This document shows positions 28,113 through 32,076 of a DNA stretch of 64,000 bases, piece by piece. Source of the DNA: Pseudomonas sp. R84 (GTDB lineage: Bacteria > Pseudomonadota > Gammaproteobacteria > Pseudomonadales > Pseudomonadaceae). The stretch's first letter is position 1. Every line of letters begins with the position of its first letter. Under the pieces are notes generated by a model. It was given only the letters and a program-made list of their open reading frames with translations. It had not been told where the DNA came from and made no database searches. Made by a program: the position numbers and the translations under genes. The stretch lies in contig NZ_CP019426.1 of assembly GCF_009834515.1 (NCBI RefSeq), forward strand, positions 2,531,501 to 2,595,500, written 5' to 3'.

Positions 28113-28127
28113 TCATCCCCCAATCCT

Positions 28128-28290
28128 TGTGGGAGCCGGGCTTGCCCGCGATGACGCCAGCCCAGCGACCGCGAACCCAGAGCCCGACACAAAACCTGTG
28201 GGAGCGAGCCTGCTCGCGAAGACGCCAGCCCAGCCACCACAAGTCTCGCGCCACCCACAAACCCCCTGTGGGAGCGAGCTTGCTCGCGAA
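28128..28290. repeat. Three REP units in direct orientation
   Basis: REP units at about 28128-28155, 28197-28221 and 28267-28290 all point the same way, with similar ~45-nt spacers (GACGCCAGCCCAGC). The first belongs to a GGGAGCCGGGCTTGCCCGCGA variant. This differs from the inverted pairs elsewhere in the window. Confidence 0.85.
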
Positions 28291-28463
28291 GACGCCCACC
28301 CAGCCACCCCATCAACCACTAACCGAAATAAACAGTAAAAACCACCACTGTTTAAACGAAGCCTCAAGTAACCACCGAAACCCTACAACGCCTTGCGCCG
28401 TTACCTACGACTAAGCCAGAATCCGCCGGCTTGTGCGTCTAGGTCGCGGGTTCTATCGTCTGT

Positions 28464-28670
28464 CGGTCGCTGAAAACAGCGATCGGGTTTGGTAGCCCTG
28501 AGTTTTCGTAGATTGCATAAGCATCATGATTCGCAGTGTCTGTTCGACACGGCTTTATGGTGGTCATGCACAGGGCGTCTTCGGGCGCGCCGGTTTTCTA
28601 CGTCCCGGTCTACCAACCTGCGCATGGCCGCCACCCTCGTTTGGTAGCGAGAGTGATGGCTCCTTTTTTT
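28464..28670 (+). promoter_or_regulatory. Structured leader with terminator-like hairpin before DUF6124 gene
   Basis: A predicted RNA leader. Hairpin A: 9-bp stem 28464-28472/28477-28485 with loop AAAA. Hairpin B: GGG/CCC stem (28485-28498) with loop TTTGGTAG. Smaller hairpins follow, including GTGTC/GACAC. At 28610-28616 is CTACCAA, exactly complementary to 7 nt of that loop. Hairpin C (28627-28660) repeats the loop TTTGGTAG on a different stem (CTCG/CGAG, extended by GCC..GGC) and is followed by seven T (28664-28670). The ribosome site GTAGGAG comes directly after. It looks like an attenuator or cis-acting RNA; no known class was recognised. Confidence 0.55.
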
Positions 28671-28688
28671 GACGTAGGAGCTTCATCA

Positions 28689-29051
28689 ATGATCAAACCA
28701 ACACCCAACCCACCAGAAACCGACCCCACATCCCCTTACGAATCCCCCGACTCCAAGCGATTCCACGAAGCCGCCGAACGCGCCCTCGACCACTACCTCA
28801 AACCCGCCAGCCAAATCATGGCCAGCACCCAACAGCCCGAACGCATGTACCTCGCCAACCCGAAGTACAACAGCGAATCCCTGCTCGCCAACGCCAGCGA
28901 AACCCTCGGCTCCGCCAGCGAAATGCTCCTCAACTTCGCCGCCATGCTCGACACCCCGCACCGCAAAACCGCACTGGGCATCGCCCAGGTGGTGATGCTC
29001 GGCGAAATCGCCGTAAACCAAGCGCTGGATAACGTCGAAATCGCCAGCTAA
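28689..29051 (+). CDS. DUF6124-family protein (formerly DUF3077)
   Basis: A 120-residue Pseudomonas-specific protein, soluble and helical, recognised by SKRFHEAAERALDHYL (about 20-35), ESLLANASETLGSASEML and the C-terminal GIAQVVMLGEIAVNQALD. Function is unknown; members are multicopy in fluorescent pseudomonads. AGGAG lies 8 nt before the ATG at 28689. The structured leader immediately upstream suggests control of transcription elongation. The next gene is a lipase-type effector 137 nt downstream. Confidence 0.85.
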   Translation: MIKPTPNPPETDPTSPYESPDSKRFHEAAERALDHYLKPASQIMASTQQPERMYLANPKYNSESLLANASETLGSASEMLLNFAAMLDTPHRKTALGIAQVVMLGEIAVNQALDNVEIAS

Positions 29052-29187: not shown

Positions 29188-30729
29188 ATGAGTGGCTACG
29201 TACCCAACCCCCCGAAAAATTACCGTTACGAAGAAGCCAAACCCGTCGATATTCACGCCCAGCGTTGGGCGGAATATGAGAAACACGGGAAAGAACCTGC
29301 GCGCGAACCTGAGAAAATCGGGATTGCGTTGAGGATTGGGGTTTTCTTTGATGGCACTGGGAATAATGCGAATAACACGGCGGCGGGATTGCTGTGTGGG
29401 GCGCAGCATCCGATTGCGCCCGAGGATATCCCTGCCAGTTGTCAGCCCTATATGAGGGATCCGGACAGCAGCTACGCCAACGACACCACCAATGTTCAGA
29501 AACTGAGCGAACTGTACTTCGCACCTCAAAAGGCCGAAGGGGATAGTTCGCAAAAGCAAGCGTTCCGGATGATTTACATCGAGGGAATAGGAACTCAGTC
29601 AGGCAAGAAGGACAGTACGTTAGGTGGTGGTACTGGCCGAGGCGAAACAGGCGTGGCGGGCCGAGTTCAGTTGTCGTTTGCAGAGATCAAAACGCGTATC
29701 AAGGACGTGTTGGACAACAATCCCAATAGTGAAATTACGTCCCTGACCTTTGATGCATTCGGCTTCAGCCGTGGTGCTGCTGCGGCAAGACACTTTGCCA
29801 ACGAAGTCGTACGTGGAAAGCAGGGGCCACTCGGGGAGGTTTTGCGCAGCAACGCCAATGCCCTCAGCCGGACCTTCATCGAAGAGTACAAAAGCAGCAT
29901 CAACATTGGTTTTATTGGCCTTTTTGATACGGTGCCATCCATTGCGGGCTGGTCGAATCTGGGGGATATCAAAAGTCCCATCGCAACAGGAATCAAACTT
30001 TACCTCGACCGTCGCTTCTTCACAGATGTCGTGCAGCTATCCGCACGTGACGAATATCGGGCCAACTTCGCTCTGAGCCGCGTTAAAGCGGATCACTTGG
30101 AAATAACTCTGCCCGGGGTTCATTCCGACATCGGCGGTGGCTACCGCGATAAGGTCGAAGAGTGTGTGCTCGTCAGTCCGATGCAAACGCTTGAGGTGTC
30201 GCAATTTACCGATGTCTCCACTACGTCGATCTACCGTGATGCCGTAACGGTGAAGGCGCAGTGGCTTGCCAAAGGATGGCCAGAAGAGATGTTGGAGATC
30301 GTCACGCCTGATGCCCTTCCTCTGCCAATTGATCGGCAGGATCGGCTCAGCCCACGCATGAAGCGCGTATATGCCGCAGTGCAACTCAAACGTCCTGTGA
30401 GTGGCTTGCTCTCCAGGGTATATCTACGAGTGATGCACCGATTGGCAAAAGAGAAGGGCGTTCGGTTCCAAGACATTCCCGATACGCCTGAGTTGGCAGT
30501 GCCCGCAGAGCTTCAAGCGCTGTGTGATCGATTTCTGGCGGGTAGTTACGACACCTCAATGCAAGAAGACCAACTGCTGAAGCTGAAGTACATTCACATG
30601 TCTGCAAATTGGAACCATCCTCTCGGGCGCAGAGATGGCACTGGCGTCCGCGCCGTTTACATCAATGCCCCGACGCCGGACTCGATACGCGTACAACACC
30701 CTCATGTAGCTGACTGGAAACTTTGGTGA
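29188..30729 (+). CDS. DUF2235 / Tle1-type phospholipase effector
   Basis: A 513-residue protein of the DUF2235 alpha/beta hydrolase family, which includes type VI secretion phospholipase effectors of the Tle1 class. The opening strand IGVFFDGTGNN (about 50-60), nucleophile elbow GFSRG (Ser194), Asp247 (LFDTVP) and His312 (LPGVHSDIGGGY) give a full catalytic triad. No signal peptide is present, fitting delivery by a needle machine. The next two genes encode lipoproteins; the first overlaps this stop codon, the usual effector-immunity arrangement. No vgrG or hcp gene is nearby, so it is an orphan effector whose delivery system lies elsewhere. Confidence 0.85.
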   Translation: MSGYVPNPPKNYRYEEAKPVDIHAQRWAEYEKHGKEPAREPEKIGIALRIGVFFDGTGNNANNTAAGLLCGAQHPIAPEDIPASCQPYMRDPDSSYANDTTNVQKLSELYFAPQKAEGDSSQKQAFRMIYIEGIGTQSGKKDSTLGGGTGRGETGVAGRVQLSFAEIKTRIKDVLDNNPNSEITSLTFDAFGFSRGAAAARHFANEVVRGKQGPLGEVLRSNANALSRTFIEEYKSSINIGFIGLFDTVPSIAGWSNLGDIKSPIATGIKLYLDRRFFTDVVQLSARDEYRANFALSRVKADHLEITLPGVHSDIGGGYRDKVEECVLVSPMQTLEVSQFTDVSTTSIYRDAVTVKAQWLAKGWPEEMLEIVTPDALPLPIDRQDRLSPRMKRVYAAVQLKRPVSGLLSRVYLRVMHRLAKEKGVRFQDIPDTPELAVPAELQALCDRFLAGSYDTSMQEDQLLKLKYIHMSANWNHPLGRRDGTGVRAVYINAPTPDSIRVQHPHVADWKLW

Positions 30730-31388
30730 TGAAAGTACTTTTTACCCTGCTATGCGCGCTGTTCATTACTGGGTGCCAGTCAGCGGATCCACTTTCAGCA
30801 AAAAATGACCCGAAATCCGAGTGGTGGGAGTTGGCGTTTACCGAGCCGGACTACATGAAGGTCTGGGTAGAGAACAGTTCTGTTCAAGACATTAACGGCA
30901 GGATTTTCTACAAAACCGGCGGCGGCACCGCTGCGGGGGGAGAACCTGAAGATGGCACGGAGTCTGCCCGAGGTTGGACAGGTGGGGTAGGCGGCAGCGG
31001 AAGGAGAGTGGTGGGAGCAGATTTACCTGTTCGCATCTGGGTCCGTTGGCAATCTATTGTCGAACAGAAAACGTGGCAGGCATGGGTAGAAATCCCAGAG
31101 GAAGCCAGGCAGTTGATGGTGGCGTCCGTCAATCAACGTTGCCCGCAGACGCCTGATCAGGAAGCGAGATTTATGGCGTCGGTTTATCTAGGGTTGGCCC
31201 CCGGTGGTGTTGTGCAGGTTTGGGTAAGAGACTCTTGCCACCACCCGGTTAAAGTCGCTCGAGCGCAGGCTGAAATTGAGCCACTGGGGCCGAGCCAAGG
31301 TAAGAACGAAGGGCGTTACGCTTATCCGGTGAGTGAAAAGGCCAAGCGGTACATCGATAAATATGGCATTCCATACGGAAGTTGGTAG
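30729..31388 (+). CDS. DUF2931 lipoprotein, probable effector immunity protein (copy 1)
   Basis: A 219-residue lipoprotein with the lipobox LFITGC (Cys16) after a hydrophobic signal. It matches the DUF2931 type, with WWELAFTEPDYMKVWVE near the start and GRYAYPVSEKAKRYIDKYG near the end. The ATG overlaps the effector's stop codon by 1 nt (TGATG), so the two are translationally coupled. A periplasmic lipoprotein next to a Tle1-type enzyme is expected to neutralise it; that role is inferred. It differs from copy 2 by a Gly-rich insert around residue 80. Confidence 0.82.
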   Translation: MKVLFTLLCALFITGCQSADPLSAKNDPKSEWWELAFTEPDYMKVWVENSSVQDINGRIFYKTGGGTAAGGEPEDGTESARGWTGGVGGSGRRVVGADLPVRIWVRWQSIVEQKTWQAWVEIPEEARQLMVASVNQRCPQTPDQEARFMASVYLGLAPGGVVQVWVRDSCHHPVKVARAQAEIEPLGPSQGKNEGRYAYPVSEKAKRYIDKYGIPYGSW

Positions 31389-31419
31389 TCGTGACACTTA
31401 ACTGAATGGATCTTTTGTA

Positions 31420-32076
31420 ATGAACGCAAGGATTGCGCTGCTGGGCGCTTTATTGATATCTGGCTGCCAAATCGGAGGTCCAGAAACCGGCGAAAATGAC
31501 CCTAAATATCCATGGTGGGAGTTAGTGTTCGTTGAGCCGAATTACATGAGGGTCTGGGTAGAGGACAGCTCCGTCCAAGACATCAATAACAGAATTTTCT
31601 TTCGCGCTGGCAAGAGCACTGCTGCTAGCGGTGAGCCCGATATCAGCACAGAGTCTGCTCGTGGTTGGGGGACAGTATCGGGGACTGGGATGCCTGTAAC
31701 GGGCGCTGATCTTCCAAAACAAATCTTTGTCCGCTGGCAATCCATAACAGAGCAAAAAACCTACCAAGGTTTCATCGAAATTCCGGAAGAGGGCAGGCAA
31801 CTGATGGTGAAGTCAACACACCAGCGTTGCCCGGAAACACCGGAGAAAACTGCTCGCTTTATGGCGTCACTTTACGTGGGGCTCGCTCCAGGCGGCGTAC
31901 TTCAAGCATGGGTTAGAGACTCATGTCGAAATCCGGTTGCGGTTGCCCGAGGTCAAGGTGGGATAGAAGTTTTGGGGCCGGAACAAGGGAAGCACGGTGG
32001 TCGTTATGCCTATCCGGTAAGTGAGAAGGCTAAGCGATATGTGGAAGAGTACGGCATTCCGTATGGAAGTTGGTAA
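31420..32076 (+). CDS. DUF2931 lipoprotein, probable effector immunity protein (copy 2)
   Basis: A 218-residue paralogue of the preceding gene with the lipobox LLISGC and the same framework (WWELVFVEPNYMRVWVED, CRNPVAVARG, GRYAYPVSEKAKRYVEEYG). The two copies are clearly homologous but diverged in the middle. The gap to copy 1 is 31 nt, so the three genes form one operon. A second copy may protect against a variant effector, or be a leftover from tandem duplication. Confidence 0.82.
   Translation: MNARIALLGALLISGCQIGGPETGENDPKYPWWELVFVEPNYMRVWVEDSSVQDINNRIFFRAGKSTAASGEPDISTESARGWGTVSGTGMPVTGADLPKQIFVRWQSITEQKTYQGFIEIPEEGRQLMVKSTHQRCPETPEKTARFMASLYVGLAPGGVLQAWVRDSCRNPVAVARGQGGIEVLGPEQGKHGGRYAYPVSEKAKRYVEEYGIPYGSW

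Follow-up and report, generated by a model that had tools for sequence, protein, structure and literature searches.

C4-type antisense RNA units in front of DUF6124 genes in Pseudomonas sp. R84

The leader of a DUF6124 gene in the window, as the whole 64,000-nucleotide stretch of Pseudomonas sp. R84 DNA analysed here is called, is on sequence grounds close to certain to be a member of the C4 antisense RNA family, and it is placed so that it should silence the gene that follows. The same genome holds 36 C4 units, mostly before DUF6124 genes, an observation that is new here. The reading favored, at a probability of about 0.87, is that of a P1-type C4 antisense switch on DUF6124, in which the antisense segments a' and b' would block translation and 36 privately addressed units would be exchanged as cassettes. 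C4 itself was known from phages P1 and P7, and a multicopy group from Acinetobacter baumannii; the scale, the linkage to DUF6124, the different three-part addresses, and the apparent exchange of cassettes are new. A phage immunity RNA here appears to have become a chromosomal control system across the genus, with candidate targets that can be read from the sequence, and it offers a large natural set of antisense switches that differ in specificity and a first regulatory handle on DUF6124.

The C4 leader in the window

Rfam covariance searches assign the leader to two families (Table 1). The C4 model scores 79.6 bits against a gathering threshold of 45 and is matched over positions 1-87 of 87, and c4-a1b1, the upstream target, scores 47.8 bits, just over its threshold of 46.7; besides these two, the scan of the whole 64-kb window found no family at gathering score and no riboswitch aptamer match. 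The initial annotation had recognized no known riboswitch class in this leader and had left it unclassified, which the assignment to RF01695 and RF03163 overturns; a riboswitch or a new RNA class was rejected on the same scan.

Table 1. Features of the C4 unit and of the gene behind it, in window positions
Feature	Position	Strand	Basis
Candidate promoter TTGTGC-17-TATCGT, just 5' of a1 stem	28431..28459	+	by eye; weak
c4-a1b1 element, two hairpins; a1 loop 28488-28495	28453..28504	+	RF03163
a1 hairpin, GGG/CCC stem, loop TTTGGTAG	28485-28498	+	letters; terminator-like in scan
b1, CGTAGA, complementary to part of b' loop	28507..28512	+	complementarity, 6 nt
C4 antisense RNA	28553..28638	+	RF01695, fold z -4.84
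Mature C4, putative	about 28559-28635, 77 nt	+	comparison with phage P1 only
b' antisense segment TTTCTACGTC, loop of third C4 stem	28595..28604	+	10-nt pairing with b2, G-U allowed
a' antisense segment CTACCAA	28610..28616	+	pairs with a1 and a2 by sequence
a2 target hairpin, CTCG/CGAG stem; loop TTTGGTAG 28640-28647	28636..28651	+	letters, fold
T run, seven T	28664-28670	+	letters
b2 target GACGTAGGAG, includes Shine-Dalgarno-like AGGAG 28676-28680	28671..28680; -18 to -9 from start codon	+	
DUF6124 gene, 120 aa, start codon 28689	28689..29051	+	PF19619, E 2.6e-18

The initial annotation had drawn attention to one loop, TTTGGTAG, carried by two hairpins, and to a CTACCAA complementary to both. 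Between 28401 and 28700 the loop sequence is indeed found twice, at 28488 and 28640, and CTACCAA once, at 28610; the latter is the a' segment and the two loops are its targets a1 and a2, so that the loop is constant around changing stems because both hairpins are targets of one antisense segment. The GGG/CCC and CTCG/CGAG stems are present as letters, but the GCC/GGC extension proposed for the second goes unused in the predicted fold, where GCC (28627-28629) is part of the C4 closing stem. Absent from that annotation were the C4 fold, the b' loop, and the match of this loop to the Shine-Dalgarno region (b2, 10 nt) and to b1 (6 nt).

Selected RNA structure and a cis-acting RNA had also been suggested, and both suggestions are borne out. 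The C4 unit alone (86 nt) folds at -42 kcal/mol (z -4.84, 0 of 200 shuffles as good), the 251-nt leader folds with z -4.32 against shuffles (one shuffle equally good), and the proposed check for compensatory changes finds them in 15 of 22 predicted C4 pairs among relatives, in an alignment from which the third stem is missing. The cis-acting RNA is C4 itself, with an a1b1 target and pairing to its own target, and a form of about 77 nt, processed by RNase P, is predicted.

The same annotation read the second hairpin and seven T as a terminator that stops transcription ahead of DUF6124. The T run, followed by the ribosome site, is confirmed as letters and does come after a hairpin, but runs of six or more T between C4 and the start codon are found in 4 of 36 paralogous leaders (the window among them), the terminator scan is silent at 28627-28670, and the 53-nt stretch from a2 to the ATG folds near shuffle level (z -1.26, 27 of 200 shuffles as good). 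Attenuation is thus highly improbable, and a conserved intrinsic terminator before the gene was rejected on the same counts.

Another alternative makes the upstream element an activator: a short RNA ending near 28505 would bind C4 and turn the gene on, in the manner of IsrK of Gifsy-1, which in the available part of PMC4825925 raises an anrP translation fusion 139-fold when given in trans. The isrK model (RF01394) matches the window weakly over its full length at 28466-28558 (21.8 bits, E 0.014), and the a1 hairpin is terminator-like; the match is, however, below the gathering score of 50, and the scan gave three terminator-like sites in 900 bases against 1.4 expected. Activation through a1b1 is unlikely on this balance, and it is compatible with the antisense switch as its on-switch; by the IsrK parallel, as far as that part of the source goes, a short a1b1 RNA would be the first candidate for the opening signal.

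A strict sigma-70 scan of the window leader found no promoter, and a looser scan of the 36 paralogous leaders found no common consensus and preferred, for the window, TTGCGC-18-CAGAAT to the candidate in Table 1. Further upstream, between an acetyltransferase gene and the C4 leader (28127-28300), lie three similar repeats of the GTGGGAGC...GCTCGCGA type, which we take to resemble Pseudomonas REP elements.

The DUF6124 protein is predicted to fold into three helices (mean pLDDT 74.9, pTM 0.49, 29 sequences). Its fold has no match in the PDB at E 0.001 or better, its sequence has no match there, and no PADLOC, PHROG or NCBIfam family was found for it. The name DUF6124 was not found in the main text of the openly accessible papers searched, and a search of that literature mostly by title found no title on C4 arrays in Pseudomonas. 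Among five genes tested beside the window unit no phage gene was seen. Downstream, at 29188-32076, lie a Tle1-like gene of T6SS phospholipase type (PF09994) and two DUF2931 genes in a row, possibly an effector with its immunity proteins.

Addresses of the C4 units

A covariance search of the R84 genome finds 36 C4 matches (35 over cut-off), as well as 34 a1b1 matches (16 over cut-off), each lying no more than 130 nt upstream of a C4. DUF6124 gives 33 matches over cut-off in this genome. The initial annotation had suspected a recurrent leader, and 29 of the 36 C4 do directly precede a DUF6124 gene, at a distance of 320 nt or less. Four of the 33 DUF6124 genes lack their own C4 (G000:C1:6434114, 4223619, 922428 and 3058143); the last of these stands in tandem behind a C4-preceded copy. 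Of the remaining seven C4, two precede Bro-N proteins (Pfam), two precede DUF3077 proteins, and three precede proteins of about 100 aa to which no Pfam family is assigned. Of the two Bro-N proteins, the one tested (L025) matches phage anti-repressor families in PHROGs. One DUF3077 gene follows its C4 directly (L033), and the other (L028), an intact gene of 93 aa, is preceded by a leader frame of 24 aa whose stop codon overlaps its start (ATGA).

At all 36 loci a' pairs with a2 over an uninterrupted 6-9 nt, G-U allowed, and the best b'/b2 run, sought from about -40 to +2 relative to the ATG, falls within -20 to 0. The mean score of own pairs exceeds all 2000 permutations at each of a1, a2, b1, and b2. 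When a2 and b2 are taken together, 30 of 36 loci have their strictly best match in their own target, the other six matching another locus better (L029, L034, L048, L052, L054, L060); for a1 and b1 together this holds for 14 of 36, and for b1 alone, which is weaker than b2, for 8 of 36. Thresholds of 16 for a and 17 for b are both passed by 29 of 36 own pairs against 9 of 1260 foreign pairs. All 36 address strings (a'/b') are different, which argues that each C4 mainly controls its own gene.

Among nine loci that have CTACCAA as a', b' still selects its own b2 (0/5000 permutations); the corresponding figure for four CTACTAA loci is 207/5000, a weak test. As a control, b' was compared with the own coding start, where no excess was found (3409/5000). 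Runs of b' with b2 are weak at L029, L048, L050, L051, L054, L058, and L060, with scores of 13.8-16 against a mismatched mean of 13.2. Foreign b matches at a score of 17 or more occur at 0.021, against 0.016 for shuffled b'; because foreign matches are thus at about the shuffle level, there is no sign of cross-talk avoidance beyond chance, and selection against cross-talk is not supported.

Own-target specificity is replicated in another genome of the genus (G010), which has 36 C4 matches (35 over cut-off) and 29 DUF6124 matches. Thirty of its 36 C4 were taken into the address tests, with L303 counted although its chosen start yields an 18-aa frame. Own-pair scores are reached by 0 of 2000 permutations at each of the four sites, the own target is strictly best for 26 of 30, 29 addresses are distinct, and both thresholds are passed by 29 of 30 own pairs against 11 of 870 foreign ones, with b2 matches starting between -27 and -7. 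Two neighbouring DUF6124 pairs in this genome, whose proteins are 96% and 98% identical, carry different addresses. When R84 is pooled with 78 loci from named genomes, 55 addresses are distinct and the own a2 and b2 are strictly best for 37.

Cassette differences and distribution

At the orthologous locus, with the acetyltransferase gene upstream and the Tle1-like gene downstream, four C4 cassettes are found in front of DUF6124 proteins 98-100% identical to that of the window: W (window, L096, L099-L102), X (L094, L095), Y (L097, L098, and L104, whose protein is 97% identical), and Z (L103, L105). By eye, b1 and b2 fit the own b' in each of the four, and in Y the a1, a', and a2 are likewise its own. 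The permutation tests took in these cassettes, and for L103/L105 and L097-like units another locus can score equal or better. Between L095 and the window, identity is 100% across the promoter region and the first a1 stem, falls to 71% in a1 and b1 and to 57% in the spacer, is 79% in C4 and 83% from a2 as far as the Shine-Dalgarno site, and reaches 98% in the gene, while Y cassettes diverge from the window already at the promoter region (65%). Noncoding DNA just 5' of the cassette is 99-100% identical in X, and because this DNA is unchanged the cassette looks replaced rather than drifted.

Similar differences are found within genomes and among the named loci. At four loci with DUF6124 genes in tandem (L095, L097, L104, L112), the pair shares 93.9-98.6% DNA and 94.2-100% protein identity, and their C4 share 67-76% and flanks 51-61%. 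Across the 78 named loci, DUF6124 is at least 95% identical in 176 pairs, in 48 of which C4 is less than 80% identical. Gene conversion of the coding region together with exchange of leaders would account for like proteins behind unlike C4. Decay offers another explanation, in which the units are copies of a phage-derived repeat that are functionless now, as their number and dispersal and the weakness of some b'/b2 matches might suggest. Such decay is hard to reconcile with compensatory changes in 15 of 22 C4 pairs, with three-part addresses that are still matched after a cassette change, or with DUF6124 frames that measure 119-127 aa behind 27 of the 29 C4 and 108 and 110 aa behind the other two, and it is the least probable of the alternatives.

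Within the genus, C4 is found in 138 of 149 sampled genomes (a per-genome count of 27 in this sample stands for at least 27) and DUF6124 in 115 of 149. A sample of the class has C4 in 18 of 274 genomes, R84 included, with 1-6 matches in the others, and DUF6124 in one, R84. In a distant gammaproteobacterial genome, four C4 matches lie within 1.4 kb (G409:C9:1700-3092, L191). Named genomes contain at least 524 DUF6124 relatives, of which 79 loci were kept, all from Pseudomonas. The covariance search in Pseudomonas that the initial annotation proposed as a check found C4 5' of DUF6124 at 78 of 78 named loci with sufficient upstream DNA, ending 45-55 nt before the ATG; as these loci are the nearest relatives, the count is little guide to more distant DUF6124 genes. 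Elsewhere in the genus C4 also stands before Bro-N and DUF3077-like proteins and before two further families, one of about 52 aa and one of about 90 aa, and outside the genus one AntA/AntB-like antirepressor was seen behind C4, in a sorting that left 9 of 47 loci unclear or without an ATG and in which at least two choices, those at L067 and L078, look wrong.

A pattern search of viral contigs gave 86 stretches, and the loci loaded from them comprise 81 C4 units, which simple motif sorting divides into 29 of the 52-aa type, 19 DUF6124-like, 9 DUF3077-like, and 24 others. Of these 24, 17 open with a frame no longer than 40 aa; 15 of them continue with a second frame, DUF3077-like by eye, whose start lies one base ahead of the stop codon, and the remaining two are cut by the contig end. 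L028 and the 15 viral units (L195 and L273, for example) share a short leader frame (22-35 aa) with a stop codon that overlaps (ATGA/GTGA) a DUF3077-like start, as with icd and ant1 of P1, and translational coupling at this overlap seems to be kept. A weak match to DUF6124 (E 0.0083, below cut-off) was also found for one viral DUF3077 protein, and the two families may therefore be distantly related.

DUF6124 itself turned up in a single phage record among 50,697 (EU982300, with the gene at one end of the record and its own C4 beside it) and in none of 72,556 plasmid records, and the idea of DUF6124 as phage or plasmid cargo was rejected on these counts, but 19 of 81 viral C4 units precede a DUF6124-like start. 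Six C4-DUF6124 units on viral contigs (L205, L209, L224, L241, L245, L261) have similar addresses, are placed right at the end of the stored sequence, three bases past the last codon, and may mark a common prophage border.

The viral units also bear on a further alternative, in which the C4 would form a bank of immunity RNAs, with inherited flanking sites, whose action is chiefly in trans, on mRNAs from prophages or elsewhere. The address of L028 (G000:C1:348774-348860) is that of C4 on seven of the viral contigs (L200, L206, L210, L212, L213, L252, L273; 81 units compared), all of them leading into DUF3077-like genes, and cross-immunity between this host locus and related prophages is possible; C4 of P1 and P7 confers heteroimmunity, according to the available portions of PMC5320573 and PMC12197685. 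Against such a bank, 1 of 36 addresses is shared with viral units and 36 of 36 units keep an a2 site beside their own gene, and it is improbable as the main role of C4.

Proposed switch and known systems

The reading that best fits these observations is that a phage immunity switch has been multiplied into a family of translational locks, each with a private address, and repression of DUF6124 by C4 is, by analogy with P1, very likely. We infer that a single transcript would carry a1b1, C4, a2b2, and the DUF6124 gene, and that RNase P would free from it the C4 RNA of about 77 nt. The a' segment would then dock on the a2 loop and the b' loop would cover the Shine-Dalgarno region (b2), leaving DUF6124 untranslated, and a1b1 would be a second target able to soak up C4. 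Addresses would swap or diversify as whole matched cassettes, with the protein unchanged. More tentatively, the units may form a domesticated heteroimmunity array, in which dozens of near-interchangeable proteins have private C4 locks, gene conversion keeps the proteins alike, matched three-part cassettes swap or diversify, and DUF6124 would be a growth-inhibiting or antirepressor-like effector, the chromosomal counterpart of icd/ant; each silent copy could then be released on its own. With one and the same protein behind different locks, the evolution of RNA specificity can be tested directly.

The annotated c4 region of phage P1 (c4, a1, b1, a2, b2, icd) served as a control for the layout of the window. 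In P1 the end of C4 lies 50 nt from the icd ATG, a2 begins 4 nt past C4, b2 lies at -18 to -11, and icd and ant1 overlap by ATGA. Both a1 and a2 are exact matches to C4 RNA, and the annotated b1 is one letter short of an exact 8-nt match, so an imperfect b1 is not unusual. The P1/P7 C4 (RF01695 and RF03163) and the window unit are alike in their three-stem fold, the a1b1-C4-a2b2 order, the spacing to the start codon, and the position of b2 over the ribosome site. They differ in their targets, icd-ant in the phages and DUF6124 in the window, where a comparison with the immI operon found no icd or ant downstream of C4. The phages differ further from the R84 genome, which has 36 chromosomal C4 matches with 36 different addresses.

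Type I toxin-antitoxin families also consist of multicopy small proteins, every one of them paired with an antisense RNA of its own that is directed at the ribosome site. Those RNAs are encoded opposite their target, whereas C4 lies on the same strand, and by the proposed mechanism on the same transcript, as its target.

The IsrK-orf45-anrP system of the Salmonella prophage Gifsy-1, as described in the accessible part of PMC4825925, is alike in that a structured leader RNA element controls translation of a downstream antirepressor operon, and it differs in that IsrK is reported to activate in trans and in that the window matches the isrK model weakly (21.8 against 50 bits). Both c4 and c4-a1b1 are listed by Weinberg et al. 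2010 (PMC2864571, in the part available), who, according to the accessible text of PMC5320573, predicted C4 in Pseudomonadales among others. The latter, a 2016 study of A. baumannii, describes in that text an abundant group of C4-like RNAs that shows signs of processing by RNase P, and suggests bacterial targets. The Group 1 sRNAs of A. baumannii AB5075, on the same portion of PMC5320573, resemble the R84 units in that many C4-like RNAs occur in one bacterial genome and a' is variable; no targets are named there, whereas each R84 C4 lies between two candidate targets and is linked to a downstream gene, and its address specificity was tested.
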